64,000 bases of DNA from [Leptolyngbya] sp. PCC 7376 (GTDB lineage: Bacteria; Cyanobacteriota; Cyanobacteriia; Cyanobacteriales; MRBY01), in the NCBI RefSeq assembly GCF_000316605.1, contig NC_019683.1:604036-668035 (forward strand). Reading direction: 5' to 3'. The position numbers and the translations under genes are program-made. Each line of letters opens with the position of its first letter. Within the stretch, counting starts at the first letter, position 1. The notes under the pieces were generated by a model. The model had not been told where the DNA came from. It ran no database searches and saw only the letters and a list, made by a program, of their open reading frames with translations. Shown here one piece after another: positions 5,604 through 38,413 of this stretch.

Positions 5604-5733
5604 AAATACACTAGAAATCAACAAGGAGCGTAACAATCAAGTTTTTATGCACCTGATGTGAACATTCGAGATTCAGAAATGAACCAGTTTGTTCCATCAC
5701 CCTTTTATTTATCGGACAAATTTAGCATGAATC

Positions 5734-6504
5734 CTAGGCGATCGCCGTACCGTCATTAGACAAAACATCCTGCAAACGACCAGAACCCACAGCCTTAACA
5801 GCTTCTGCCAAATTCACATCACCCGTATAAATAGCCTTCCCAACAATGGCGCCAGTGACACCAATTGCTTCAAGGGCAACTAAATTAACTAGATCACTCT
5901 GAGAACTCACTCCTCCGGAAGCAATCACAGGAATTTCAATTTGCGATGCCAACTCCCGTAACGCTTCAATATTCGGGCCAGACATCGTGCCATCGCGGTG
6001 AATATCAGTGTAAATAATTGCCGCAACACCTTGAGTCGCCATCCGTTGAGCCAAATCTGTTGCCATCACTTCAGATGTTTCGAGCCAACCTTTTGTCGCA
6101 ACTTTACCGTTACGGGCATCAATTCCCACTGCAATTCGTCCGGGATATTTTTGGCAGAGTTCAGTAACTAGCTCAGGATTTTCGACAGCCGCTGTCCCAA
6201 TAATTGCCCGCTCAACACCAACATTAAATAGGCGTTCCACACTTGCAACATTGCGGAGACCACCACCAACCTGCACTGGAATATCGAGTGCTGCGGCAAT
6301 ACTTTTAATCGCATCGAGGTTTACCGACTTCCCTTCTTTTGCACCATCAAGATCCACAACATGAAGACGAGTTGCCCCCTGCTCCGCAAACGTTTTTGCC
6401 ATCTGAGCAGGATTATCGTTAAACACTTGGGCTTGATCATAGTCCCCTTGGTAGAGACGCACACATTGACCGCCGAGCAAATCGATAGCAGGGATAACTT
6501 CCAT
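5734..6504 (-). CDS. hisA: ProFAR isomerase (HisA)
   Basis: A 256-residue (beta/alpha)8 barrel enzyme of histidine synthesis that isomerises the ProFAR aminoaldose to PRFAR. The N-terminal catalytic Asp is in IPAIDLLGG (Asp8). The second acidic catalytic region is [14 protein letters not shown]. Phosphate-binding motifs VGGGLR and ASGGVSS are present. Length is normal. No other his gene is adjacent, as is usual for scattered cyanobacterial his genes. The start lies about 60 bases from the divergent tRNA-Cys gene. Confidence 0.96.
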
Positions 6505-6563
6505 GTCGAAAAAATAGTTGGTAGTTGGACAAAAGCTTTGCTATGATAGCTAATCGTTGGCTC

Positions 6564-6635
<72 letters not shown>

Positions 6636-6953
6636 TTTTCATATTTTCAATAGTTATTTGTCGTCTCTAACACAATACAAAGCATTTCACTAACAACTCC
6701 TGTTAATGAAAAGTTGTTATCTATGATTTGCTTGGCAATAGCCAAGCAAAAAGAGACGGAAAATGGGCATGTAGTACCTATCCCACTCTGATAAATTTCG
6801 CACCTAAAATCAAGCAGGATCTATGCAGTGAGGACATTTGACGATTCCCATATCTCAAAAAACAAAGTAGAATATACAATGGCAATTACAAATATGCTAC
6901 ACAAAGACTGCAATTATAGTGTGGCTGACAAATCAACCTCAATTGTCAAGCGG
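6636..6953. other. 318-base gap with one strong hairpin, no gene
   Basis: No convincing coding sequence. At 6728-6749 TTGCTTGGC and GCCAAGCAA form a perfect 9-bp stem with an AATA loop. There is no U tract after it on the plus strand. The reading frame that enters from 6828 overlaps the mtnX fragment and looks random. This gap is the left side of the proposed inversion breakpoint. Confidence 0.4.
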
Positions 6954-7280
6954 TTAAGAAGAAGATGTATAACCATTCAACGACATACCATAAGATTCAT
7001 AACAAGGTACTTGGCGATCGCTTAGAAATTGTAAAAACTCACTAAAACCAGGACGTGTGGGTTTATCGTTTATCTCATCAACAAATGCAGGGAATTTCTC
7101 AGATGGAATCGCTTCGAGGATTGTCCGTACTCCTTCTCGTAGAGTCATCTCACGGTAATAAAGCTTCGGGAGAATATCAGCAGAAACCTCAGGTGCAAAT
7201 TTCGCTAAGGCATCCCCAAAAGTATCAACGGTTGTAATTGTGCCATCGAAGTCGCAGAAGACAATCGTTTTTGCATCCAT
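6954..7280 (-). pseudogene. 5' fragment of mtnX-like HAD phosphatase gene
   Basis: From the ATG at 7280 the reading gives VFCDFDGTITTVDTFGDALAKF-type sequence, the nucleophile motif DFDGT of the HAD-IB MtnX/SerB-like phosphatases. It continues through LREGVRTILEAIPSEKF and PGFSEFLQFL. Homology to the family stops after DRQVP, near 7005; the last 16 residues before the stop are unrelated. Real family members are about 215-235 residues, so the C-terminal half with the second Asp motif is missing. A matching C-terminal half, ELVEKTQVM...IAIGDGLTDINMAL, sits at 37203-37445 on the other strand. The fragment is very likely inactive. MtnX works in methionine salvage; the precise substrate here is an inference. 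Confidence 0.85.
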
Positions 7281-7372
7281 GAAGTTTTGTAAAGTATGTT
7301 GTCTCCAAGGATTATAAACGCCCTGCCTCATTTCGCCATCTGCCCGAGAGGATTTGGTCAAGATCTCCATAA

Positions 7373-7403
7373 AAAAATCTCCCCAAGCATGTTGGAGAGA
7401 TTT
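7373..7403 (-). terminator. Rho-independent terminator of glnN
   Basis: Read on the minus strand, AAATCTCTCCAA pairs with TTGGGGAGATTT around a short loop, with one mismatch, and is followed by a run of seven T. It lies about 50 bases beyond the glnN stop. Confidence 0.75.
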
Positions 7404-7450
7404 ACTTCTTTATAAAATTAAAGAACTGTAAGTCGCCTTAACTTTAGAAA

Positions 7451-9628
7451 TTACTTGATAAAGAGCATTTCTTGGTAAGTAGGTAGAGGCCATGCACTGT
7501 CTGCAACGATACCTTCCAGGGAATCTGCAAAGCCACGAACTTCGTCCATCATGGGGCGAAGTGTGCCAGCTGCGTACTGCATGTGATCTTCGGTAGATGC
7601 GAAATCTTCTTTGGTGATCGCCGCTTCAAGCTTGTTCGCAGAAGCCACGAGATCATTCGCGAGACCAGCAACAGTTTCAGCGATGGATTTGTCGAGGGAG
7701 ATACCCATGCCGCTGAGCTTCGCACTAGTATCAGCCAGCTCAGAAAGATAAGTAACTGCCGCAGGGTAAATCATGGTCTTAGCCACATCAGCCACAACCT
7801 TAGCTTCCACATCAATAGACATGATGTACTGTTCTGCGTAAACCTCGAAGCGACTTTCAAGTTCGACAGGGGTCAACACGCCAGTGTTCTTAAAGAGTTC
7901 CTCAATGCTTTCATCCTTGAGCCAAGGGAGAGCATCCGCAGTGGTGGGGAGGTTCTTGAGTCCTCGTTCTTCCACCGCCATTTTGTGCCATTCTTCGGAG
8001 TAACCATTGCCACCGAAGATGACGACACCATGTTGTTCCATCACTTCTTTGAGAACTGTGAGGATTGCATCGCTAACTTCAAGACCCTTCGCAAGTTCTG
8101 CTTCAAGGCGATCGCCGATCCAGCTCAAAGAATCAGCCAACATAGTATTGAGGGCGATTAATGGACCCGCAACAGATTGGCTAGAACCTACTGCACGGAA
8201 CTCAAAACGGTTTCCAGTGAAGGCAAAAGGAGAAGTACGGTTGCGATCGCCAGCATCCTTAGTGAGGGCAGGTAGCACATCGACACCGAGATCCATCACG
8301 CCTTTCTTCTTAGAATCAGCGACGGAACCAGTCTTGATTTGCTCAAACACTTCCTCAAGCTGAGAACCGAGGTAAACAGACATGATTGCTGGAGGTGCTT
8401 CGTTCGCACCAAGGCGGTGGTCATTACTTGCGTTCGCAATCACTGCGCGCATCAAAGGACCATACTTGTGTACACCACGGATTACAGCACCACAGAAAAC
8501 GAGGAATTGAGCGTTTTCGTGAGGGGAATCACCAGGATCAAGGAGATTACCTTGGGTGGGGTTACCCACAGACCAGTTCACGTGCTTACCAGAACCATTG
8601 ATGCCCGCAAAAGGCTTCTCATGGAGGAGACACATAAAGCCATGCTTCTTCGCAGTGGCCTTGAGGGTTGTCATAATGAGCTGCTGGTGGTCACTGGCCA
8701 CGTTAGCCGCTTCAAATACTGGCGCAATCTCAAATTGACCAGGCGCAACTTCGTTGTGACGCGTCTTTGCAGGAATACCAAGCTTGTAGAGTTGGATTTC
8801 AACATCCTGCATGAAAACCTGAACACGCTCGGGAATCGCACCGAAGTAATGATCATCAAATTGCTGACCCTTCGCAGGTGCTTTACCGAAAAGCGTACGA
8901 CCAGCGAGGATCAGATCAGGACGCTGATAAGCAAAGTTTGAGTCAATAAGGAAATACTCTTGCTCAGCACCACAGCTGGAGTTGACGCGAGCCACATCAG
9001 TGTGACCAAGTAGCTTCAGAACTCGCTCAGCAGCTTCATCCATCGCAGCAATGGAACGAAGAAGAGGTACTTTCTTATCAAGTGCCTCGCCTGTCCAAGA
9101 TACAAAAACAGTTGGAATACAGAGGGTAGACCCATTCTCTGTTTCCATGATGTAAGCAGGGCTAGTCACATCCCAAGCAGTGTAACCACGGGCTTCAAAC
9201 GTGTCACGAATGCCACCGTTAGGGAAAGAAGAACCATCTGGTTCACCCTGTACTAGCAACTTGCCAGAAAATTCGGAAATAACTTTACCTTCACCTTGAG
9301 GGGAGATGAAGCCATCATGCTTCTCTGCCGTCAAGTTTGTCATTGGGTAGAAGACGTGAGCGTAGTAAAGGGCGCCTTTCGAAATTGCCCAATCGCGCAT
9401 TGCTGTTGCTACAGTCTCAGCAATGGATGGGTCAAGTTTCTCGCCTGTTGTAATTGTCTTTTTAATAGACTTAAAAACAGACTTAGGAAGACAAGCCTGC
9501 ATTTTACTCAGGTCAAATACATTCGTTGCCCAAATTTCGTCAAGGGAAGAAGGGCCACCACCACAACCAACAGACGTACGGCTTGTAATTTGCTGAATGG
9601 CTTGAACGCGTGCTTCGTTTCCAGTCAT
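7451..9628 (-). CDS. glnN: Glutamine synthetase type III
   Basis: A 725-residue enzyme forming glutamine from glutamate, ammonia and ATP. Length and domain order match GSIII: an N-terminal region with the signature-type stretch [19 protein letters not shown], the catalytic barrel ([42 protein letters not shown]) and the C-terminal helical extension. In cyanobacteria this isoenzyme is typically induced under nitrogen starvation and supplements GlnA. Upstream (9629-9732) I saw no full GTA-N8-TAC NtcA site, so nitrogen control cannot be shown from this sequence. A hairpin terminator follows. Confidence 0.96.
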
Positions 9629-9732
9629 AGGTTTATCTATAGGTCTAACGGCCTAATATTACTCAAGGCATTCCCTCAAAAAAGATAATCTCTATACAGA
9701 ATTCTCATTTATTTACAATGTATCCTTGATAG

Positions 9733-12552
9733 CTATTTTGCTTGTCTTTTTGACAAAAACCAGCGAAAAAATAGTTTTTCGAGTTCAACCCAAACAAACA
9801 TCAGGGTACTGAAGCCGAGACAAATGGCGAGTTGGGTTAGGGTAAGATACTGAGTTTCAAAAAAGTTGCGGATGGGTGCAACGTAGATCAGTGAGAGTTG
9901 CAGCAATGTAGTGCCGGTGACCGCCCAAATGAGGTAAGGGTTACGGAAAAGGTTTAGTTCTAGGGTGAGACGGGTTTGTGAACGGACGGCGATCGCATGG
10001 CCCATTTGGGAGAGACAAAGGGTTGTGAACACCATTGTTTTCCAACTGTCGGGGTCAATACCAAGTTCTGGGTGATTAAAGGAAATCATCATTAGAGAAA
10101 TAGTGATAATGGCAAAGATAATGCCAACGCGCACCATATAAAATCCAAGACCCCTTGCAAAAATGCTTTCCTGAGGGCTAAAAGGACGGCGCTGCATTAC
10201 ATCGGGTTCTGCTGGTTCGAGGGCAAGGGCAAGGGCGGGCACACCATCGGTGACAAGGTTCATCCAGAGAATTTGAAGAGGACTAAGGGGAACAGTCGGT
10301 AATCCCAATAAGGGCGCTGCTGCGATGGTCAGAACTTCGCCGATATTACTGCCCAAAATATATTTGATGAAATTACGGATATTAGTAAATACAACACGCC
10401 CTTCTTCAGTTGCTGCCACAATCGTGGTGAAGTTGTCGTCGAGCAAAACCATATCACTGGCTTCTTTGCTGACATCTGTGCCAGTAATGCCCATGGCAAT
10501 CCCGATATCGGCTTTTTTTAAAGCTGGGGCATCGTTAACGCCATCGCCTGTCATCGCGACAAAACGGCCGTTAGTTTGCAGAGCTTGGACAATTCTGAGT
10601 TTGTGTTCTGGAGAAACGCGGGCATAGACATTGACATCCTTGACGGCGGCTTCGAGTTTGGGTTGGGAGAGCTTTTCGAGTTCAATGCCGGTGAGGGTTT
10701 TTGTCTCTGTATTGGCAATGCCTAGGTTTTGGGCGATCGCCTTAGCAGTGAAGGGATGGTCGCCGGTAATCATAATGGGACGAATGCCAGCCGCTTTACA
10801 TTTGACCACCGCATCGCGAACTTCGGGGCGGGGAGCATCAAGCATTCCCACTAAACCCAACCAAATCATGTCTTTTTCGGCAGTGTTTGAGTCTTGGGCT
10901 GTGGGCATCTCAGATAAATTTCGATAGCCAAATCCGAGAACCCTTAGTCCTCGTTGGGCTAAATGTTCGTTGCGCTGGAGAATTTCTCGGCGATCGCCTG
11001 CCTCTAGTTGTTGAATGCCACTATCAGTTTGGTATTGCAGACATCGTTCCAGAATAATTTCAGGAGAACCTTTGCAGAATAATTCGTAGGACTTGGAATT
11101 ATCGGCGCTTGAGCCAATGACACTCATCCGTTTACGTTCGGACGAAAAAGGAAATTCTCCTAATCTCCGCCATTGTTTAGGAATCTCCGCGTAATGCTGA
11201 TTGCCTTTCCCTGCCAAAGCCAGTAAAGCGCCTTCAGTTGGATCGCCAATCACTCGCCATTCATTTGAATCTTTGCCGAGATTGGCGTCGTTGCACAGGA
11301 GACATCCTAATAAAAGCTGTTGGAGAGCCGCATACTTTTCGGGGGTGATCGCCTCACCGCGTCGGATAAATTCACCCGTTGGCGCATAACCTTCCCCCGT
11401 CACCCGAAAGGCATGGTCGAGGGTTTCCACTTCCTGCACCACCATTTTATTTTGGGTAAGCGTGCCTGTTTTATCTGAGCAAATCGTATCGACAGAACCG
11501 AGGGTTTCAACGGCCGGTAATTTGCGGATCAGAGCATTGCGTTTCACCATTCGCTGCGTCCCAATCGCCAAGGTTACCGTAATTACAGCGGGCAATCCTT
11601 CTGGCACAACGGCCACCGCCATACTCAACGAAACTTCTACTAATTCTTTTAGGCGACTGAGATTTCCAACTTGCAAGCAACCAATAATAACGACCAACAC
11701 CACAATGGCAATGGAACCTGCCACTAAAACATTGCCGAGTTGCGCCATCCTTTTTTGCAAAGGCGTTGCTTCCGATTCGACGTTTTGGAGCATAGTGGCA
11801 ATTTTGCCAAGCTCTGTCGTCATCGCCGTTGCCGTCACTACAAATTTGCCGCGACCTTTTAAAACCTCAGTTCCCGTAAACACCATATTGAGGCGATCGC
11901 CCAGACTCGTTTCTCCCTGCAATCCCTCGACATTTACCGCTTTAACGACAGGAGTCGCCTCACCAGTTAAAGCCGATTCGCGAATTTGGAGATTTGCCGC
12001 TTCTAGCAACACACCATCCGCACAGAGTTGACTACCTGCTTCAATAAAAACGATATCGCCGGGTACAACTGATTTGCCGTCGATTTCCTGTACCTGACCA
12101 TTCCGTAAAACGCGCACTGAAGGCGAAGACATTTTTTTGAGAGCGGCGAGGGCTTTTTCGGCGCGACTTTCCTGAACAAATCCCAGCACACCATTGATGA
12201 TCACAATGGTCAAAATGGCGATCGTATCTTTAAACGGAAATGAGCCATCAAGCCCACCATTGCGTAATTCAATAAAATCTAAAACTCCAGAAATAATCGC
12301 CACGACAATCAGCATAATCAGCATGATGTCTTTAAACTGATCGAGCAAAATCTCCCATGGCGATCGCCCATGACCTTCTTCAATTTCGTTGCTGCCGTAA
12401 ATTTTTTGCCGTTGTTCGAGAGTGCCTGTTGCTAGTCCTTGCTGTGGGTCAACCTGTAACTGCCCTAAAACTTTCTGAATACTGATCTGATACCAAGATA
12501 AATGCTGATCTGGCGGAGAAAAAGAACGGGAAGAATCACGCACAATAAACAC
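9733..12552 (-). CDS. P-type cation ATPase, PacL/PMR1-like (probably Ca2+)
   Basis: A 939-residue P2A-type ATPase. In order: cytosolic N-terminus, TM1-2, actuator loop with TGEATPV, the TM4 PEGLP ion-binding motif, phosphorylation motif [10 protein letters not shown] near residue 350, nucleotide-binding domain, the hinge [21 protein letters not shown], then TM5-10 with [16 protein letters not shown]. The TM4 and TM6 motifs resemble Ca2+-pumping PacL of Synechococcus, but Mn2+ or Na+ export cannot be excluded. It is not in an obvious operon; the start faces a 360-base gap shared with the divergent pentapeptide gene. Confidence 0.9.
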
Positions 12553-28377: not shown

Positions 28378-29580
28378 CTACTCTTCTGGTGCAGCCATAT
28401 CGTAATGAATACCCGCATTCTTCCAGAGGCTGATGGCATAACGGAGGCGATCGCAGGGCTGAATTAAACTCATCCGCACATAGCCTTCTCCCCCTTGGCC
28501 AAAGGCATTACCGGGAGTCACAACCACACCAGTTGTCCGGAGTACATAGAGTGCGAAATCAGTGGAATTCATGCTGGGTGGTACAGGAACCCATAGATAC
28601 ATCGTGGCGTTAGAAGGTTTGACCTTCCAGCCAATTTCGCTGAGAGCCTCAATCAGGCAATCCCGACGTTCTCGATAACGCTCTTGCACCCCTTGGATAT
28701 AGGTATCGGGGAGTCCTAGGGCTGCTTCTGCTGCTTTTTGGATGGCAGAGAAAATTCCGTAATCGAGGTTCGTTTTTAAAGTGCGTAAACCTTGAATAAT
28801 GTCCGAATTACCCACGACGAAACCCACCCGCCAACCTGCCATGTTGTATGTCTTTGAAAGGGTGTGGAACTCGACACCGATTTCATCGCCACCGGGAATC
28901 TCGAGCAAACTGGTGGGCTTAAACCCATCAAAGGATAACTCTGCATAACAAAGGTCATGGACGAGCATCACCTTATATTTATGTGCCCATGCCACAACCT
29001 TCTCGAAAAACTCGCGCGGTGCAGAAGCAGTGGTGGGATTACTGGGATAGTTGAAATAGAGAATCTTGGCGCGGTGGGCAACCTCTTCTGGAATAGAGTC
29101 GAGGTCAATTAACCAATCCTGCTCTGGCTTCAGGATAATTTCATAGACATCAGCTCCCGCAATCAGAGGACCACGGAAATGAGCGGGATAGGAAGGACTG
29201 GGTACCAAGACCGTATCGCCCGGATTCACATAAGCCAATGCAAGGTGAGCTAATCCTTCTTTTGAGCCCAGCAACGGTAAAGCTTCACTGTCTGGATTTA
29301 GTTCGACATCGTAGCGGCGTTTATACCAAGTGGTGATGGCATTCCGGAAACTGGCCGTTCCTTCGAATGGCGGATAGCCATGAAACCTGGCTGTCTCAAA
29401 GGCGGCGATCGCCGCATCAATCGCTTCTTTGGGTGCGAATCCATCAGGATTGCCCATGCCCAAATCAATTAAATCAATCCCTTGTTCCCTTGCTCTAGCT
29501 TTCAGCTCATCCAAACGGGCAAATACATAGGGAGGTAAAGCACTGAGACGGTCAGCTCTGGTAATCCAATCTACACTCAT
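28378..29580 (-). CDS. PLP-dependent aminotransferase (aspartate/alanine type, class I)
   Basis: A 400-residue fold-type I aminotransferase. IDLGMGNPDG and FHGYPPFEG lie near the N-terminus. The substrate and cofactor residues are in ILYFNYPSNPTTA, VHDLCYAELSFDG and the PLP lysine motif TLSKTYNMAGWRVGF; the carboxylate-binding Arg is in EGYVRMSLIQP. This subfamily is usually annotated aspartate aminotransferase, and is related to AlaC and LL-DAP aminotransferase. The exact substrate is not determinable here. Length normal. Confidence 0.85.
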   Translation of the reverse strand: MSVDWITRADRLSALPPYVFARLDELKARAREQGIDLIDLGMGNPDGFAPKEAIDAAIAAFETARFHGYPPFEGTASFRNAITTWYKRRYDVELNPDSEALPLLGSKEGLAHLALAYVNPGDTVLVPSPSYPAHFRGPLIAGADVYEIILKPEQDWLIDLDSIPEEVAHRAKILYFNYPSNPTTASAPREFFEKVVAWAHKYKVMLVHDLCYAELSFDGFKPTSLLEIPGGDEIGVEFHTLSKTYNMAGWRVGFVVGNSDIIQGLRTLKTNLDYGIFSAIQKAAEAALGLPDTYIQGVQERYRERRDCLIEALSEIGWKVKPSNATMYLWVPVPPSMNSTDFALYVLRTTGVVVTPGNAFGQGGEGYVRMSLIQPCDRLRYAISLWKNAGIHYDMAAPEE

Positions 29581-29710
29581 CGATGCCGGAAATATTTAGG
29601 TAAAGGTATAGCCTACCATCATCGCATCCATAGTCCTTACCCTTCTGCTTTATTAAAGAATTTCCGCCGAATCACTTACTATAAACCTGCCAACCCTATC
29701 CACCACTCCT

Positions 29711-31438
29711 TTGAACAGCGATCGCCCTAACTACCAAAAACTGCTGCCCTATTTGCGTCCCCAATGGAAAACCATTGCTCTCGCTCTCTTGTGTACGCTG
29801 GGATTCACGATATTTTGGCCGATTTTGGCGTACCTTGCCGGGAAAATCGCTGCTGATATTGGCGCAGGAAATGTACAGGGTATTATCAATCTCGCTGGTA
29901 AAGCCGCCGTTATTTTTCTGATTCGGGGTTTTGTGCAATATGGCCAAGACACCCTAATGGCAAAGGCCGCGCTGAAAATTGCCCTACGATTACGCGTCCG
30001 AGTTTATGCGCACCTCCATAAATTGAGTCTTAACTACTTTGAGACCGCGAAAACAGGGGATTTGTCCTATCGTCTCACCGAGGATATTGATCGCGTTGGG
30101 GAAGTGATTAATAAAATTTTCCACCAATTTGTCCCCAGTATTTTGCAACTCATTGTGGTGTTGGGCTATATGTTTTGGGTGAATTGGCAACTTACCTGTG
30201 CGGCGTTGGTGATTGGTCCTCTAATGGCGGTTTTAATTGGGGCATTCGGTGAAAAACTTCTTGAATTTTCCCGCAAAAGTCAGAGCCGTACCTCCAATTT
30301 GTCTGCACTCCTAACCGAAGTATTTAGCGGGATTCGGTTGGTGCAAGCCTTTGCCGCAGAAGATTATGAGCTACAGCGCTTTGAATTAGAAGCTGAGCAA
30401 AACCGTAAAGCAAAATATCGTGCCGAACGGATTAAAGCCTTGCAATTTGTAGTGGTGGGTTTCCTCGAAGCCATGAGCGTCATTTTTCTATTTTTCCTTG
30501 GTGGTTGGCAGATTTCCCAACAGAATTTAACCGCAGCGGATTTTGTGGCCTATGTGGCAGCAGTGGCATTGTTGATCGATCCAATTCAGATTACGACCAG
30601 CAATTTCAATGAATTCAAGGAAGGGGAAGCTTCTATCGACCGCATTTTTGAGCTGATGGCGATTCAGCCTAGTGTGGTCGAAATCCCTGATGCTCAGCTT
30701 CTGCCCGAAGTGACAGGCAAGGTTGAATATCGTGATGTGACCTTTGCCTACGAAGCCGATAAACCAGTATTACAGGGCATTGATTTAACAGTGAAACCGG
30801 GCGAAATGGTGGCGTTGGTAGGAGCTTCGGGAGCCGGTAAAACCACCCTCGTTAATCTTCTGCCTCGTTTTTATAATCCTGATGGTGGTGAAATTCTAAT
30901 TGATGGCGTTGATACGAAATCCGTCACGTTAAAAAGCTTGCGCCAACAGATTGGTATTGTGCCGCAGGAAACGGTTTTATTCTCTGGCACGATCGCCCAA
31001 AATATTGCCTTTGGTCAGACTGATATCAATGTCGAACAAGTCGAAGCCGCTGCCAAAATTGCTAATGCTCATCAATTCATTTCAGATTTTCCGCAAGGCT
31101 ATCAAACCTATGTGGGAGAACGGGGTGTTAATCTCTCCGGCGGTCAACGACAACGGGTGGCGATCGCCCGTGCGGTTTTACTCAATCCCAAAATCCTGAT
31201 CCTTGATGAAGCGACTTCTGCTCTTGATGCCGAATCTGAAGCATTAGTGCAAGAAGCCTTAGAACGCATTATGAAAGACCGGACTGTTTTTGTCATTGCT
31301 CACCGTCTCGCAACAGTCCGACGCAGCGATCGCATCCTTGTTTTAGAAAAAGGAAAAATCGTTGAGTCCGGAAATCATGACGAACTTCTCACGGAAGATG
31401 GACGTTATGCCCAATTCCATGCGCAACAGTTTTCCTGA
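29711..31438 (+). CDS. ABC exporter, MsbA-like half transporter
   Basis: A 575-residue fusion of a six-helix type I exporter domain (about 1-315) with an ATPase domain. Walker A is GASGAGKTT, the Q loop is IGIVPQETVLFSGT, the signature is LSGGQRQR, Walker B is ILILDEATSALD, and the H loop is FVIAHRLATV. It should act as a homodimer, exporting lipids, peptides or other hydrophobic molecules; the substrate is unknown. The start is TTG (29711); no ATG lies upstream in frame. A decayed fragment similar to its C-terminal 55 codons occurs at 36995-37165. Confidence 0.88.
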   Translation: MNSDRPNYQKLLPYLRPQWKTIALALLCTLGFTIFWPILAYLAGKIAADIGAGNVQGIINLAGKAAVIFLIRGFVQYGQDTLMAKAALKIALRLRVRVYAHLHKLSLNYFETAKTGDLSYRLTEDIDRVGEVINKIFHQFVPSILQLIVVLGYMFWVNWQLTCAALVIGPLMAVLIGAFGEKLLEFSRKSQSRTSNLSALLTEVFSGIRLVQAFAAEDYELQRFELEAEQNRKAKYRAERIKALQFVVVGFLEAMSVIFLFFLGGWQISQQNLTAADFVAYVAAVALLIDPIQITTSNFNEFKEGEASIDRIFELMAIQPSVVEIPDAQLLPEVTGKVEYRDVTFAYEADKPVLQGIDLTVKPGEMVALVGASGAGKTTLVNLLPRFYNPDGGEILIDGVDTKSVTLKSLRQQIGIVPQETVLFSGTIAQNIAFGQTDINVEQVEAAAKIANAHQFISDFPQGYQTYVGERGVNLSGGQRQRVAIARAVLLNPKILILDEATSALDAESEALVQEALERIMKDRTVFVIAHRLATVRRSDRILVLEKGKIVESGNHDELLTEDGRYAQFHAQQFS

Positions 31439-31985
31439 TCAAAAGTTTAGATATCCAACTTTACGCCCTTGCAAAAAAAAGCTCGAAAGACTACAACAGA
31501 TCACTAATCTCATAAAGGTGAACTTAACCATTGGCAATACTATTCAATGAGCTGCTGACTCATTACTAATCCTTGATTTTGTGAGCAATGATGAAGAAGT
31601 CTTTATCTTAACAAAGTATTATGTGCTCTCAAGCGAGAGTCAGAGCACAGCGCAGAAATCAAACAAGATCGCTGCAGTCTATTTTCGTAATAATTTTTCT
31701 CTTCCTTCTGCGAAAAAATTTGTCTGCCATCATGAAATCTGACAATACATCAATAGATTACTTCGACATCCTCTCATCTGAGCTATATTTCCTAAACTAC
31801 CTGCCACAAGATCTCTTACTAGATGATTTTTCATAGCTTCTGTAGCAAGATTGTTGTGTAGACTGAACAGCCTAGAATGTTGCACAAGATAGTCTCTCCA
31901 TCTGCTTTGCATTTGTTCTAGGGGACAATTTTAAAGCTTGCCTCGCGACAGACGCAGTGTATCAAAGACGCCAAATACCAAAGTT
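31439..31985. other. 547-base gap before the dynamin-like gene
   Basis: AT-rich. A 71-codon open frame at 31621-31836 has no recognisable domain or ribosome site, and I do not support it. It presumably holds the promoter of the GTPase gene. Confidence 0.4.
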
Positions 31986-34514
31986 ATGACCCCACCTAGC
32001 CCTGCGGAGAATCTAAATCAAATACATGAGCTTCTAAAGCAGTTAGGACGGCAGATTATTGACATTTATCGCTCCGCTCCAGATATTTTCGATGATCAAA
32101 ATATTGGGACAGAATTAGAGCAATTTCTGAATGCATACCGGGACGCCAATAACCGTCTCGAATACCCTCGCCTAAGAATTGCGACTATTGGCACGACTTC
32201 CTCTGGAAAATCAACCATCGTCAATTCTTTAATTGGCCGGAGAATTGCTCCGATTGAAGCAGGAGAAATGAGCGTTGGTCTACTCAGTATCAACCACGAT
32301 GAGCAACGCCGTTTGGTTATTAATCAAACTCCAGAGGCAGCTTGGGAAACTGGTGAATGGACCGATTTAGATGATCAGGATATCTATCTCAAAATTCGCA
32401 GTACCATGCAGAATTATCGTCAACTTAAGCGAAACACTGAATGCGTTGCACCCCAAGTCAAAGCTTATTTCCCATTATTACCGGCCAGAGATATTGCATT
32501 ATCCGGTCTACCCGACGAAATTAGTATCGAATTCCTTGATCTGCCAGGACTGAAATCTGTCAGCGATCGCCGCAACCTGTCTGTCATCCAGTCGCAAGTC
32601 GGTAAAGCTTTTAGTTTGGTGGCCCTTGACTATCTCCAAGTTAACGAAGAAAAGCGCCAGCGCCTTCTCAGCGAACTGCAAACAGTCGTGAGGTACTACC
32701 ATGGCCACGTCGAATCTATGATCTTCATTTTGAACCGTATTGATAATCGTGGTACTGATGACCTGCCTTTAGAAGAGAGAATCGTTCAACTTAAAAAAGA
32801 AATCAAAGAAGTTCTAGACCTTGCAGAAGAGCCAGACTTAATCCCTTTCAATGCCCGCCTGCTCTACTACTCTCAATGTGCATGGGGAACAACCCCTTTA
32901 GACTCTGCTTCAGAAGTCCCTCAAGCCTTAAGAATTCAATTTTTAGAAGCCTTATTTAACGACTGTGCAAAAGTGATCCGTGAGAATCTGAGCGAAAACC
33001 GAGAGTTAAGACAATGGTTCCGAGATCTAGAAGATAATGTTGCCGACCAAAATGAAATTACAGATGAGGATCTGCGCAAATTACTGCAATACGCAATGCA
33101 ATGGAGTGGTGGAAAAAAATTATGGGACTGTATTCAAACTAGACTTAAAGACTCCTTTTCTGAATTAGTTATTATTCCAATTCTTGTTGAAACATTGAAT
33201 AGTTTTGATGCCCTCAATGAATCCCTGGAGATTTTATTACAAGCCCGTCGAATTGGCACCACGGAAGAGGTGAACCAAGAAAAAGAGAAAGTCGTCAAGA
33301 TTCGCAATGATTTACAAGCTTGTCTCTCAAAAATTCGGGAAGACTTTCACGATACCGTCAATGTCTATATGGCCGCATTGAAAAATGATAATCCTAAGCT
33401 CAGACTGAAGATTAAACAAGAGACTGAAGCCAATGGTATTCAAGGGTTTTCCGCTGTTTTTGACTCTGTTCGAAATGTTGAAACAGATCTAATTACGTCA
33501 CTCATTATTCCAATACGCCAATCTTTCCATCAGAAAGAGTCGATGTTGCAAGTAAAAGAAAAGCTGGAGCCTGTCATTGGTATTCAATTGGCTCAAGAAA
33601 TCGCTCAAAATTATGAACGAGTTCAGAAAGTTCTAGGCAAATTTAGTAAGCACAAAAATGGTCGATTCATTAAGCGTCGTGTACCGACTAATGATGATGA
33701 AGCATTAGCTGAACTGAAGCAAGATGAACGTGTCGTTAAATTGTTTTATCGCTCAATCAGAAAAGCGATATCCCGCCGTGCAGAATTTTGTTTACAAGCT
33801 CAAGCAAAACAATTTAAAGAAGTATTGGAATCTCTCGTTGAAAATCAGCTTAAACAGCTTGAGATTTGTTTGACTGTTAGCAAAGAATACTGTTCGATTA
33901 CTTTAAGCAAAGCCGCCATTAGTAGCCTCTACAAAAAACTTTTGCAAAATCCTCCAGCTCTACCTGAAAACTTTTTTGAAATTCAAGACTTAAGTCGTAA
34001 AGAAAGTAAGACAGAGATTGAAATAGTTGGCTCAGAAACTTTTTTTGAAGAATCTAGTGAAATTCGTAGGGAGCTTTACACTGAATATTATCGACAAGGA
34101 TCTTGCTTTAAAAGTACTCGTCGTCGTTTGAAAGCTCGTCCCGTGATTGAAAAAGTCAAAAAGCCTGTTGTTAAGAAAAAGTATTCAGAGATTGATTATA
34201 TGGAGTTATTTTTGCCATCACCACAAACAATGGCAAAGCAGTGGTCAGAAGGGATTAATAGTACTAAAGGAAGTTTGTGGGATGTTTTGTCAAAGTGGAT
34301 TATGGATCGATTAGATTATGTTAATGAGACCTTCGAACAGTCGGCAATTAATATTACTGATTTAGCTGAAAGAACATTAAATAAACAGCTTGAGATCATT
34401 GAGACTAATTTTCAGGAAAACACTCAGAAATTGCATGAGTTTGAAATCAAGAAGGAAAATATAATTGCTACTCGTATTGAATTGGAGCGTCTTGCAAAGC
34501 GTAAAGATCAATGA
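31986..34514 (+). CDS. Dynamin-like large GTPase
   Basis: About 842 residues from the ATG at 31986 (a TTG at 31938 would add 16 residues). The GTPase domain has G1 GTTSSGKST at 69-77, a likely G2 Ser/Thr near 97, G3 DLPGL at 185-189 and G4 NRID at 250-253. Long helical regions rich in Glu, Lys and Gln follow, with heptad-like character near 410-640 and 770-842. A basic hinge (STRRRLKARPVIEKVKKP) lies near 705-722. No TM helix is evident. Bacterial dynamins bind and remodel membranes; some act in envelope repair or phage defence. The TPR gene starts 170 bases downstream on the same strand. Role unassigned. Confidence 0.8.
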   Translation: MTPPSPAENLNQIHELLKQLGRQIIDIYRSAPDIFDDQNIGTELEQFLNAYRDANNRLEYPRLRIATIGTTSSGKSTIVNSLIGRRIAPIEAGEMSVGLLSINHDEQRRLVINQTPEAAWETGEWTDLDDQDIYLKIRSTMQNYRQLKRNTECVAPQVKAYFPLLPARDIALSGLPDEISIEFLDLPGLKSVSDRRNLSVIQSQVGKAFSLVALDYLQVNEEKRQRLLSELQTVVRYYHGHVESMIFILNRIDNRGTDDLPLEERIVQLKKEIKEVLDLAEEPDLIPFNARLLYYSQCAWGTTPLDSASEVPQALRIQFLEALFNDCAKVIRENLSENRELRQWFRDLEDNVADQNEITDEDLRKLLQYAMQWSGGKKLWDCIQTRLKDSFSELVIIPILVETLNSFDALNESLEILLQARRIGTTEEVNQEKEKVVKIRNDLQACLSKIREDFHDTVNVYMAALKNDNPKLRLKIKQETEANGIQGFSAVFDSVRNVETDLITSLIIPIRQSFHQKESMLQVKEKLEPVIGIQLAQEIAQNYERVQKVLGKFSKHKNGRFIKRRVPTNDDEALAELKQDERVVKLFYRSIRKAISRRAEFCLQAQAKQFKEVLESLVENQLKQLEICLTVSKEYCSITLSKAAISSLYKKLLQNPPALPENFFEIQDLSRKESKTEIEIVGSETFFEESSEIRRELYTEYYRQGSCFKSTRRRLKARPVIEKVKKPVVKKKYSEIDYMELFLPSPQTMAKQWSEGINSTKGSLWDVLSKWIMDRLDYVNETFEQSAINITDLAERTLNKQLEIIETNFQENTQKLHEFEIKKENIIATRIELERLAKRKDQ

Positions 34515-34684
34515 AAATAAGTTTGATGCTATGGATTTCAATCAGAATTTGTAGTCGATAATCATTTGGGTTTCGATGATTGTAGGATTGGCTACTTTTT
34601 TCATTGTGACAAGTAATATTTGTTCGCTTCTGGTTATTGAGATGTGTGATATAAAATACATGGGCATCTACTACTACTGGGATA

Positions 34685-36166
34685 ATGAAATTAAATAATC
34701 GGGACAGTGATGGCTTTTCTCTGGCATTTGGTCAGTTTAAAGATGTTTCACGCAGTCAAAGTAACACTGCGGGGAAAAGTCAGGATGATTATGCTTTTTG
34801 GAATAGTCAGGGATTAGAGCAAGGAATTCAAGAGAAATATCGCGAAGCTTTAATTAGTTTTGATGAGGCGATCGCCATTGATGCGGAACATAGTGAGACT
34901 TGGTATAACCGCGGTATTGTGCTGTTTCAGTTACAGCGCTATGGAGAAGCTTTAGACAGTTATAACCATGCAGTTGAGCTTAGAGCTGACTCTGTACCAG
35001 CTTGGAATAATCGTGGCAATACACTCAAGGTATTAGGGAAATATGAAGAGGCCATTGATTCCTATGATCAAGCTTTGAAATTAGAGCCAGATGATTATTT
35101 GTCATGGGACAATAAAGGCGACTTATTGAAAGAGTTGAAGCAATACCACGAAGCAATTCAATCTTATAGCAAAGCATTAGTAATTAAGCCGAATTCAGCA
35201 GAGATTTGGTATAAGCGTGGTCTGGTTTTTGAGCTTTTATCTCAAGATAATGATGCTTTGATGAATTATTCTAAAGCATTAGAAATCAATCAAAACTCAC
35301 CTCATATTCTTTGTGCAAGGGGATCGATTTTGGTTCGGTTAGAACGTTTTCAAGAAGCATTGATGTGTTTCAATCGGGCGATCGAACTTAAAGCTGATTG
35401 TGTAGAAGCCTGGTCACATAAAGGCTTTTTGTTGGAGCAACTCAAGAAAATAGAAGATGCTATTTTCAGTTATGGTCAAGCCTTGGCTGTTAATCCGAAT
35501 CAAGAAATTCTTTGGTATCACCGAGGAAATTTATTTCTCCGCCAAAAACAATATCAACGTGGTCTTCATTCCTATGATGAAGTCTTGAGGCTGAACCGTG
35601 AGCATTATCAATCACTGAATAATAAAGGCGTTAGCTTATACAAGCTAGGCGATGTTCATGGCGCCTTTAAATGTTTTCAGAAGGTCTTAGAAATTAATCC
35701 TTATGCTTTTTCTGCTTGGAATAATCAGGGTCAAATTTGTAAAGCTATTGGTGATTATCAGGAAGCAATCATCTGTTATGACAAGGCTTTGAAAGTTGAA
35801 CCTAAACAATCTAAAATCTGGTCAAAGCGAGGTCTATGTTTGGCAAAATTAGGACACTATGAGGAAGCTATTAATAGTTTTCAACAAGCTATTCAGTTGG
35901 ATAAGTCTTACGCTGAAGCCTTGTATGCTCAAGCTGCTGTGTTCGCTGTGCAGCAAAACCTACAATTGGCCCTGGAATATTTAGGTAAAGCAATCTCTGC
36001 TAATCCGAAATACATACAGGTTGCTCAATTAGATCGCAACTTCGAATGTTTGCGAGAGCACTATCATTTTGAGGCCTTGATCAACACCACACCTCTCTTG
36101 AATCAAAGGCAAATTCTATTGCAAGAATTTCAGCAGTTTCACCTTCCTCTTACATCCAATGCGTGA
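34685..36166 (+). CDS. Large TPR protein
   Basis: A 493-residue protein built of about twelve tetratricopeptide repeats of 34 residues. Examples are WYNRGIVLFQLQRYGEALDSYNHAVEL, WNNRGNTLKVLGKYEEAIDSYDQAL and WSKRGLCLAKLGHYEEAINSFQQAI. The Trp at position 4 and Tyr/Phe at position 11 recur regularly. The first 45 residues are unique and the last 40 lack the repeat. Such solenoids bind partner proteins. Position after the dynamin-like GTPase, same strand, suggests a partner or adaptor, but this is inferred. The repeated codons make a periodic DNA pattern that is coding, not a DNA repeat array. Confidence 0.88.
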   Translation: MKLNNRDSDGFSLAFGQFKDVSRSQSNTAGKSQDDYAFWNSQGLEQGIQEKYREALISFDEAIAIDAEHSETWYNRGIVLFQLQRYGEALDSYNHAVELRADSVPAWNNRGNTLKVLGKYEEAIDSYDQALKLEPDDYLSWDNKGDLLKELKQYHEAIQSYSKALVIKPNSAEIWYKRGLVFELLSQDNDALMNYSKALEINQNSPHILCARGSILVRLERFQEALMCFNRAIELKADCVEAWSHKGFLLEQLKKIEDAIFSYGQALAVNPNQEILWYHRGNLFLRQKQYQRGLHSYDEVLRLNREHYQSLNNKGVSLYKLGDVHGAFKCFQKVLEINPYAFSAWNNQGQICKAIGDYQEAIICYDKALKVEPKQSKIWSKRGLCLAKLGHYEEAINSFQQAIQLDKSYAEALYAQAAVFAVQQNLQLALEYLGKAISANPKYIQVAQLDRNFECLREHYHFEALINTTPLLNQRQILLQEFQQFHLPLTSNA

Positions 36167-36516
36167 TGCTTAGGTATGATTCGGTTTTGAAAGGCATATT
36201 GTAAGGAGTTTAGTCTAGGAGATAGTCTTTATTGAAGAGATAGTTGCTTTGTTGTCTTAAGCTTAGACGGCAGAGTTCCTTTAGGTAAAGATAGTGTTAT
36301 GTTCGTCAGTATAGATTTTGTAAGCTATCCTGATATATGTATCTAGGTTACGGAATCAGGGGCATCGGTTTCATTTTGTTTTTAAAGGCAAGCCTGCATC
36401 TATGTAGTCTTCGAGAGATTAGTTCTTAATCGCGAAGAATACATTGCATTGTCAAGTTTGGCTGAAGATACAGCTTGAAACAAGTACGTGTAAACTCTTT
36501 ATGCTGCCTACACTCG
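36167..36516. other. 350-base gap after the TPR gene
   Basis: No gene with recognisable domains. AT-rich with no strong hairpin. A TTG-initiated extension of the next gene could begin at 36475. Confidence 0.35.
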
Positions 36517-36954
36517 ATGCTGTCAAATCTAACTTCATTCCAGTTTAACTTGCCTTTCTCTACAAATTCTTCACCGAAAACGCAGGTTTTTGTCCTTATT
36601 CCAGCTATTTACGAGAAATTAGTTGCTGAGTTAAAGGATAAACAAGAGTTTGATAATGCCAAGATGACGGCAGATTTTTTTCATGCAGCTCAATATATTT
36701 ATCAAGCTGAACCACGGATTGCAGCAGAAAAACGTCATCAGTTTGAAGCTCATGAGAGCTATGAGTTCGCTGTAGATGATCTTTTTCTTGTAGAAATAAC
36801 GCTCTTTGAAGAGGATACTCGTTTTGCTCCGAATGTGAATGGGCTTGATCGTTACGATGCCTTTGTAAATTTGATCCGTAGTGCCGTTAAAGTCGAAGTT
36901 TCAGAACGTTTGCGCATGGATACTTATGATTGTCTAGATTGGTATACTCGCTAA
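36517..36954 (+). CDS. Hypothetical protein of about 145 residues
   Basis: From the ATG at 36517 (MLSNLTSFQFNLPF). No signal peptide or TM. The centre is helical and acidic (LVAELKDKQEFDNAKMTADFFHAAQYIYQ), followed by beta-like segments (FAVDDLFLVEITLFEEDTRFAP) and VNLIRSAVKVEVSERLRM. I do not recognise the family. It sits next to the broken mtnX end. Moderate chance of being a real gene because composition and codon use look coding through its whole length. Confidence 0.55.
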   Translation: MLSNLTSFQFNLPFSTNSSPKTQVFVLIPAIYEKLVAELKDKQEFDNAKMTADFFHAAQYIYQAEPRIAAEKRHQFEAHESYEFAVDDLFLVEITLFEEDTRFAPNVNGLDRYDAFVNLIRSAVKVEVSERLRMDTYDCLDWYTR

Positions 36955-36994
36955 ATTCTAAATCGTCTATCTTAGATGGCACACAGGTGTTGAA

Positions 36995-37165
36995 GTATTT
37001 TTTTTGGCGATCACCCATGCGGTTTTACTCAATCCAAAAATTCTGATTCTCGACGAAGCAACCTCTGTCCTTGATAGCGAATCCTTGGCACAATTAAGTT
37101 CTTTAGCGGATCGCGTTTTGTCATCGTCCACCACCTTGCAACAGTTGGCGTGATGATCGCATACT
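36995..37165 (+). pseudogene. Fragment of an ABC exporter ATPase gene
   Basis: The stretch encodes AVLLNPKILILDEATSVLD, i.e. the Walker B region of a type I ABC exporter, then a damaged linker and FVIVHHLATV in place of the H-loop motif FVIAHRLATV. It has no Walker A, no start and no membrane domain. The DNA resembles 31160-31330 of the intact MsbA-like gene. A decayed partial duplicate or relic of a second exporter. Confidence 0.75.
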
Positions 37166-37202
37166 TCTATTCTGTAACGCCTTTTTAACGATTATTATCT
37201 CA

Positions 37203-37445
37203 TCATTTGAAGGGGGAACGGAGTTAGTCGAAAAGACTCAGGTGATGAAAAAGTATCAGTATGAAAAGGCGATCGCCATTGGCGATGGATTGACCGATAT
37301 CAATATGGCATTAAAAGCTGACTTAATTTTTGCAAGGAAGCATTTACGCAATTATCTCGACCAAGAAGGGAAAACAAACTATGTTGCCTGGGAAGCCTTT
37401 GATGATATTTGCCAATACCTTGAACAAAGTAATTTTCTAGCCTAA
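37203..37445 (+). pseudogene. 3' fragment of mtnX-like HAD phosphatase gene
   Basis: In frame from about 37203 the reading is SFEGGTELVEKTQVMKKY, then IAIGDGLTDINMAL (HAD motif with conserved GD..TD acidic residues), LIFARKHLRNYL and a normal C-terminus. This is the last 80 or so residues of the HAD-IB MtnX-like family whose N-terminal half is at 6954-7280. About 60-80 middle residues are absent from both pieces. A GTG/ATG pair at 37242 could start a short peptide, but it could not be an active phosphatase. The stop codon shares its last base with the inserted IS982 copy. Confidence 0.85.
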
Positions 37446-38413
37446 CGTGAGTTCGGGATAAGAAAGAAAAAGGAGAAAGTGCATATTGTGGAAGTTGATA
37501 ACCAGTCCACCACCTTCTCCCATGACCAGTCTAGAACCTTTGTTTTGTGCCGTTGATGATTTCTGCCCAGTCTTTGAACCTCAATGGCAACAGCAATTAC
37601 TGGCCTCAAAGCAAAAAGCGACGGCGTCGCCCCAGAAGCCTTAGTCTCAGCGAGATAATGACGATATTGATTGCTTTTCACCAATCTCACTATCGCAATT
37701 TTAAATATTTCTATCTCATCAATGTGCGTCATCACTGGCGAGGAGCTTTTCCCAGAGCCGTGAGTGACCAACGTTTTGTGGAGTGGATGCCTTCGACGTT
37801 AGTACCTCTCTCTCTGTGTCTACCTACAGCACTGTTATGGTCAATGCATAGGTATCAGCTTCATTGATGCCACCAGTATCAAAGTTTGTCACAATCGCCG
37901 CATCTCTCAACATCGCGTTTTTGAAGGTCATGCCGCTCGAGGTAAAACCTCTGTGGGTTGGTTCTTTGGCTTCAAACTACATCTGGTTATCAATGACCAT
38001 GGCGAATTACTCAATGTGAAAGTCACACCCGGCAACACCGATGATAGAAAACCGGTAGTGGAGCTTTTGAAAGGGTTATACGGCAAAGTCTTTGCTGATC
38101 AAGGTTACGTCTCTCAACCTCTGGCACAGTATTTACAAGAAGAATATGATGTGAGGCTTCTAGCTAAGCCTCGTCGCAATATGAAGAATCACCGGATGCT
38201 TTGGCGTGACAAAGTGCTGGCTCGTAAGCGAGCTTTGATTGAAACAGTCATTGACCAACTGAAGAATATTTCACAGATTGAACACTCTCGCCATCGCAGT
38301 CCAGCGAACTTTTGTGTCAACTTGCTTTGCGGTCTCATTGCCTATTGTCATCAGCCCAAGAAACCCTCTCTTCAGCTTGATTAGAACCTTGATTCCTTAT
38401 CCCGAACTCACGT
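37445..38413 (+). mobile_element. IS982-type element, copy A (transposase frameshifted)
   Basis: A 969-bp element bounded by ACGTGAGTTCGGGATAAG and its inverted copy, with a perfect 7-bp target duplication TAGCCTA at 37438-37444 and 38414-38420. The transposase begins at the ATG 37522, but a +1 indel after LLAS shifts it, and a second frameshift occurs near 37830; the C-terminal half reads from 37953 to 38384 ([59 protein letters not shown]). So it is inactive by itself. It lies directly after the mtnX 3' fragment. Confidence 0.9.

Follow-up and report, generated by a model that had tools for sequence, protein, structure and literature searches.

We consider here a window of 64,000 nucleotides from the cyanobacterium [Leptolyngbya] sp. 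PCC 7376 (contig NC_019683.1, positions 604,036 to 668,035), the window being the whole stretch of DNA that was analysed. It contains a gene for a dynamin-type GTPase, followed on the same strand by a gene for a protein of tetratricopeptide repeats (TPR) and by a small open reading frame (ORF); coordinates are collected in Table 1. An initial annotation of this DNA proposed the GTPase and the TPR protein as partners. Comparison with relatives leads to a different reading: the GTPase is gene 1 of a triad, GTPase, gene 2 and gene 3, the small ORF matches the C-terminal domain of gene 2, and gene 3 is missing. We are highly confident that the triad is conserved and that the copy in the window is broken. 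With moderate confidence, we also favour the wider conjecture that what lies in the window is the damaged form of an operon that spreads horizontally and is probably directed against phages.

The ORF of the GTPase ends at position 34514 and starts either with a TTG at 31938 or with an ATG at 31986, in which case the protein has 842 amino acids; it has no internal stops. It matches the Pfam family Dynamin_N with an E-value of 2e-12 and 47.9 bits, for a cut-off of 27. The three motifs first read as those of a GTPase, GTTSSGKST, DLPGL and NRID, are all present and conserved: when the window protein is aligned with 17 relatives, to which it is 36-50% identical, the residues of the first two are invariant, and the third site reads N-R-V/I-D. 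The extended P-loop motif is NAL in the relatives and NSL in the window. By its GTPase domain and its G1, G3 and G4 motifs, the protein is thus assigned to the dynamin superfamily. No clear transmembrane (TM) helix is found in it, the best 19-residue hydropathy being 1.25, in agreement with the initial annotation. A scan of genome contigs using the window GTPase as the single query turned up no relative.

A search of 195 genomes with the GTPase yields matches at E<=1e-5 in 62 of them, own genome included. Among the 61 others, we examined the wider locus in 26 (best match of at least 177 bits) and in 6 distant ones, leaving out 29. The 26 genomes, together with one plasmid locus, form a set of 27 homologous loci, of which one (L055) runs off its contig, leaving 26 uncut. 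In these relatives the order is the GTPase, then gene 2 where present, then gene 3, on the same strand, with a median of 23 base pairs (bp) between the first two genes (21 named loci) and of 15 bp between the last two (21 loci). Gene 3, about 390-460 amino acids long in relatives, is present entirely or in part in 26/26 uncut loci (97 amino acids are left in L052, and L061 and L062 have a shortened form). Gene 2 is found in 23 of the 26, the exceptions being L056, L061 and L062. No locus of the 27 has a second full GTPase of the family; L051 has an extra ORF of 363 amino acids resembling its C-terminal part, and L053 a piece of 106.

The two ends of the triad also occur together in genomes. 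Counting only strong matches (at least 170 bits), the GTPase and gene 3 are both found in 25 of the 195 genomes and neither in 159. The GTPase lacks a strong gene 3 match in only two, that of the window and G133, which keeps a fragment of gene 3; gene 3 lacks a strong GTPase in nine, three of which (G074, G161, G174) have weaker GTPase pieces. Fisher's test on these counts, uncorrected for kinship, gives p = 7e-22. The reverse scan, of named genomes with the alignment of gene 3, finds 31 loci, with GTPase sequence upstream in 22. In three cases (L074, L084, L093) the contig stops no more than about 1.1 kb upstream, and the six loci without GTPase (L088, L096-L099, L101) all have a truncated or fragmentary gene 3. 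At least six of these contigs duplicate the first set, since their GTPases are 100% identical (L073, L078, L083, L085, L087, L089). One locus, L090, is a contig of a deltaproteobacterial metagenome-assembled genome with 71% GC; since it carries the triad, the operon probably extends beyond the cyanobacteria.

Against this background, the copy in the window keeps an open gene 1, and has no gene 2 directly downstream and no gene 3. The small ORF, of 159 amino acids with a TTG start, corresponds to the C-terminal domain of gene 2: blastp matches it to gene 2 proteins in 18 loci (best E 9e-14), the remaining 5 of 23 being tied to it through the family and not directly. Among 40 genomes its homologues occur in six besides its own, in 6/6 at the triad. 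The initial annotation had proposed this protein as of no recognised kind; indeed, Pfam, NCBIfam and PADLOC assign it to no family at E<=1 and PHROG gives a single chance-level match (0.11), and its link to the GTPase in relatives, as gene 2, holds. Homology to gene 2 starts at 36553 in the window, and tblastn finds no trace there of the N-terminal half. Its best hydropathy is 0.92, while 18 of 23 relatives reach at least 1.6, a TM-like stretch. The window gene 2 is probably truncated, without the N-terminal part and the TM helix usual in relatives. The long form can be seen in the model of the L071 protein (mean predicted local distance difference test, pLDDT, 88.3), which has a helical N-terminal domain (1-112), a helix compatible with a TM span (119-142), then a flexible linker to an alpha/beta C-terminal domain (178-301). 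For this model Foldseek gives no match at E<=0.001 and VIA-align a best Z of 4.2, which does not make the fold new; a sequence search of gene 2 against the PDB gives no useful match, and three gene 2 proteins have none in PADLOC.

Gene 3 is not found: tblastn with the gene 3 family finds nothing above chance in the window, and neither gene 3 nor the JukB model discussed below has a match in the whole genome. In the phylogeny of the GTPases, the window protein falls within the clade formed by triad GTPases (20 members, support 0.997), and there in a clade of seven (support 0.752) whose other six members all have genes 2 and 3. Because the window GTPase lies inside the triad clade, the loss of gene 3 is derived; it is probably tied to a rearrangement on the 3' side. 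The distance from gene 1 to gene 2 is 1,960 bp in the window, with the TPR gene inside, and comparison with the spacing in relatives indicates that this segment came between the two genes. With gene 3 lost and the TPR segment between genes 1 and 2, the window copy should not execute the response of the triad.

The nature of this response is suggested by gene 3. Nineteen gene 3 proteins from the 31 loci were scanned, leaving aside those that are truncated, split, ambiguous, of doubtful start or fused to a lipase, and 19/19 match PDLC04114, the PADLOC model of JukB (best 1.7e-16), which has matches in 0 of 14 control genomes. The matching part includes a glycine-rich hydrophobic stretch, IAAGASVLNLGVSIAGFAY, and is followed by a large conserved helical domain. 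In two loci, L057 and L100, a Lipase_3 domain (1.2e-31 and 4e-29) precedes the conserved part; L100 retains the glycine-rich stretch, which is not apparent in L057. The model of gene 3 has N-terminal beta-hairpins, middle helices of low confidence and a confident C-terminal helical domain. It aligns with the solved JukB structure 9jht_A over 149 residues, with Z 9.4 and a root-mean-square deviation of 3.6 A; Foldseek finds nothing for it at E<=0.001. The gene 3 alignment has no match in viral contigs. Separately, a JukB-like protein of 362 amino acids is found in L112 (793-1881, minus strand) with no dynamin gene within the 3.4 kb examined. It has in common with gene 3 the start motif GL..G.....G.VIRWAAGT...GQIVRHL, which implies that JukB-like proteins occur in other cyanobacterial settings; a search of the PDB with such a solo protein gave nothing useful.

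The distribution of the triad is also telling. Strong GTPase matches are patchy (27/195 genomes), and split or broken copies are frequent (L052, L060-L062, L091, L094, L095). One triad, L036, is carried by a conjugative plasmid of Nostoc sp. TCL26-01, where its neighbours are a flanking gene for the anti-restriction protein ArdA, a VapC gene and, downstream, HmaC/HmaB-like and SNF2-type/helicase genes. Taken together, the JukB-like and lipase effectors, the patchy spread and the carriage on a plasmid by HmaC/HmaB-like, helicase, VapC and ArdA genes argue for defence, and we regard an anti-phage system that attacks membranes as the fairly probable role of the triad.

From gene order, co-occurrence and homologies, we infer how the triad is probably activated, what it targets and that it acts on phages. 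The GTPase, soluble, would assemble on a membrane altered by infection, be it a vesicle derived from the phage or the inner membrane once damaged; gene 2, usually anchored in the membrane, would couple this assembly to gene 3; and gene 3, a putative JukB-like membrane effector, would open a pore or hydrolyse lipid, with destruction of either the compartment of the phage or the cell that hosts it. More tentatively, one may conjecture a form of immunity gated by dynamin, possible if still speculative, in which the GTPase recognises or wraps the phage compartment or a stressed membrane and the adaptor, anchored in the membrane, directs a pore of the JukB type or a lipase at it, the dynamin replacing JukA. 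If so, the window would come from a natural strain in which the sensing part survives and the weapon is gone. A tight operon with a homologue of an anti-phage pore and a lipase version gives a bacterial dynamin a concrete, testable role, which would link the membrane action of dynamins to bacterial immunity.

Several observations weigh against these conclusions. The JukB match spans only about 120 N-terminal residues of gene 3, a sequence search of gene 3 against the PDB does not find JukB, the model of gene 3 is weak (mean pLDDT 63.5), and the score of 9jht_A is not above those of unrelated helical proteins, which reach Z 12.8. The defence context is clear at the L036 plasmid only: of five neighbour proteins from other loci compared with PADLOC, two have weak matches and three none. 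In 13 triad genomes among 100 searched, matches to PDLC04113, the sole JukA model tried, lie elsewhere than at the triad; this model matches weakly in 96 of these 100 genomes, and the triad contigs include some of only about 5 kb. As for the damage in the window, TM-less gene 2 proteins occur in 5/23 relatives (L039, L047, L048, L050, L059), all with gene 3; since these triads are complete, a missing helix alone is no proof of damage, which is why our confidence in a conserved triad with a broken copy is not higher. Finally, decay of the window GTPase itself is not supported by the pattern of substitutions, and its frame is open. With 18 sequences, it deviates 12 times at 135 sites that do not vary elsewhere, versus 0-6 in the others; with 34 sequences, it has changes at 7 of 100 conserved sites, while its peers (branch lengths of about 0.6-0.8) have 4-9. 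The case for relaxed constraint on this gene is thus weakened, its signal having faded as sequences were added.

The strongest alternative is that the triad is a machine for membrane maintenance or vesicle formation, in which genes 2 and 3 would serve as membrane adaptors for a GTPase that remodels the membrane. Known bacterial dynamins lend it substance: DynA is described as acting in membrane surveillance and in delaying lysis after phage infection (PMC8844932), and knockouts of LeoA/LeoB are described as lowering vesicle release (PMC4159319). However, the patchy, often broken and plasmid-borne occurrence of the triad beside defence-type genes speaks, in our view, against housekeeping, and gene 3 is JukB-like, in some loci with a lipase; we thus hold this alternative to be rather unlikely.

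A second alternative grants that the window derives from a triad, and supposes that the GTPase left in this strain has taken a new role, either by itself or in company with the TPR protein and the short form of gene 2. All three frames are indeed open, the GTPase motifs are intact, unusual substitutions are not in excess in the set of 34 sequences, and a short TM-less gene 2 exists in complete triads; yet gene 3 is not found in the genome, and the excess of deviations among 18 sequences, although it faded, points the same way. We consider such a new role improbable.

The last alternative, that the GTPase and TPR genes are a genuine two-gene unit, is very improbable: they lie on the same strand, 171 bp apart and with similar low GC, but none of the 27 homologous loci has, next to the GTPase, an ORF that resembles the TPR protein of the window (blastp E<1e-3), and the nearest TPR homologues elsewhere are unlinked. 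The twelve repeats that had been reported are real (12 TPR_1 stretches, 4.9e-93), and the partnership that was drawn from them is rejected: the lack of linkage in relatives, which the initial annotation had named as refuting its proposal, is what is observed for the TPR gene. In L048, one weak match to the TPR protein (23% identity) lies about 4 kb from the GTPase. At E<=1e-60, the protein is found in seven other genomes, with 30-36% identity; three of the seven, G025, G050 and G089, also have the GTPase, and there the two genes lie on different contigs or some 190 kb apart. The idea of a membrane or defence unit thus probably survives, by virtue of the plasmid relative with its defence-type genes and of the JukB-like partner, with the TPR protein no longer a member. 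The broken copy in the window has the value of telling a gene that is not a partner from the real ones.

Table 1. Positions of the features discussed, numbered from the first nucleotide of the window.
Feature	Position	Strand	Evidence or remark
Chromosomal flank: aminotransferase-like gene and ABC transporter	28378..31463		blastn against five same-genus genomes
Gene 1, dynamin-type GTPase	31986..34514	+	Dynamin_N, alignment of 17 relatives, clade of operon GTPases
P-loop GTTSSGKST	32190-32216		within gene 1
DxxG motif DLPGL	32538-32552		within gene 1
Motif NRID	32733-32744		within gene 1
Segment between genes 1 and 2, without counterpart in relatives	34515..36474		spacing, gene order
12-repeat TPR protein, 493 amino acids	34685..36166	+	TPR_1 matches; outside conserved operon
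Short gene 2 (small ORF)	36475..36954	+	blastp, tblastn, hydropathy
Expected start site of gene 3 (JukB-like), without remnant	36955..37441		tblastn
ABC-transporter fragment, 79 bp	37005-37083		within expected gene 3 site
C-terminal fragment of MtnX-like phosphatase	37242-37445		library match; 3' of gene 2
End of dispersed repeat resembling an insertion sequence	37442..37500		repeat search of genome

The surroundings of the locus bear out the initial annotation in its remarks on mobile DNA and rearrangement. The ABC-transporter fragment shares 84% identity with the ABC gene of the window itself, at 31158-31236. For the repeat that begins near 37442, the genome contains at least 40 further matches, a lower bound, since scoring covered 40 of 317 first-look candidates; the list of ORFs has several transposase-like ones 3' of it. 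The locus also appears accessory, as had been suggested. We took about 18-20 kb around the flanking ABC gene from each of five genomes of the same genus: the common DNA stops between 31432 and 31463, and neither the GTPase nor gene 3 has a match in these genomes at E<=1e-5. GC content is 0.396 for the GTPase and 0.387 for the TPR gene, versus 0.465 and 0.495 for two genes upstream. A scan for promoters and terminators gives only chance-level results, no convincing repeats surround the TPR segment, and the genome has no second copy of the segment between genes 1 and 2 except for one match of 63 bp.

It remains to situate the triad among known systems. Juk is described as a sensor, JukA, with varied effectors that include the pore-forming JukB and phospholipases, JukB forming tetrameric pores on the early-infection vesicle (PMC13282480). 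The likeness lies in gene 3 of relatives, through the N-terminal profile match, and in its lipase-bearing versions, which recall the phospholipase effectors in that description (PMC13282480). The difference is that the dynamin GTPase and gene 2 stand where JukA would, and that the window copy, without gene 3, has no JukB effector. With no JukA match at the locus and no JukB in the window or genome, we rejected filing it as Juk.

LeoA-LeoBC, known as the defence system Eleos, resembles the triad in its GTPases: of 18 proteins of the family, 16 are matched at their GTPase end by the LeoA profile and 15 by that of LeoBC. However, the window GTPase matches LeoA (3.1e-6) over profile positions 17-92 of 559 only, and the triad has a single GTPase, no tandem pair, and a JukB-like third gene. 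With this partial match and no tandem GTPase, Eleos/LeoA was rejected as well.

A 2018 survey divides the bacterial dynamin-like proteins (BDLPs) of cyanobacteria into the groups KGK, HSR1, chaperone, Tandem A, Tandem B and unclassified, with KGK, HSR1, DnaK or a second dynamin as neighbours (PMC5827413). The window family resembles them as cyanobacterial dynamin-type GTPases with conserved neighbours (PMC5827413), and its members in relatives share the extended P-loop motif NAL. Pfam, however, finds no KGK, HSR1 or DnaK in the small ORF, nor in genes 2 and 3 of L036, L040 and L071. In section 7 of that survey, none of the six groups is defined by genes 2 or 3 (PMC5827413); some triad GTPases may sit among its unclassified members. 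DynA of Bacillus subtilis is comparable as a dynamin from bacteria whose action at the membrane counters phages, and differs in that it is described as delaying lysis, while the triad carries a candidate pore or lipase effector (PMC8844932). A literature search, whose results did not include the original Juk paper, found no paper joining JukB and dynamin, so that a dynamin operon with a Juk-type effector is apparently undescribed so far.

A few minor observations concern the relatives and the genome. In L061 and L062, the GTPase is cut short and two ORF families shared by both loci (clusters 50 and 51) lie between it and the shortened gene 3, an arrangement that is either an insertion or an alternative version. 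In L090, a protein of 1921 amino acids lies downstream of the triad (5680-11442), with no match in Pfam (E<=0.01) or PADLOC (E<=1e-5). The more distant GTPase relatives L065-L070 have a GTPase, a small protein of 150-290 amino acids and a second GTPase, and no gene 2 or 3; the first GTPase of L066 matches LeoBC weakly (7.3e-7). Lastly, the genome of the window has two further Dynamin_N frames, of 459 and 475 amino acids, at C1:678199-678528, about 10 kb past the window end, and at C1:2743325-2743708.

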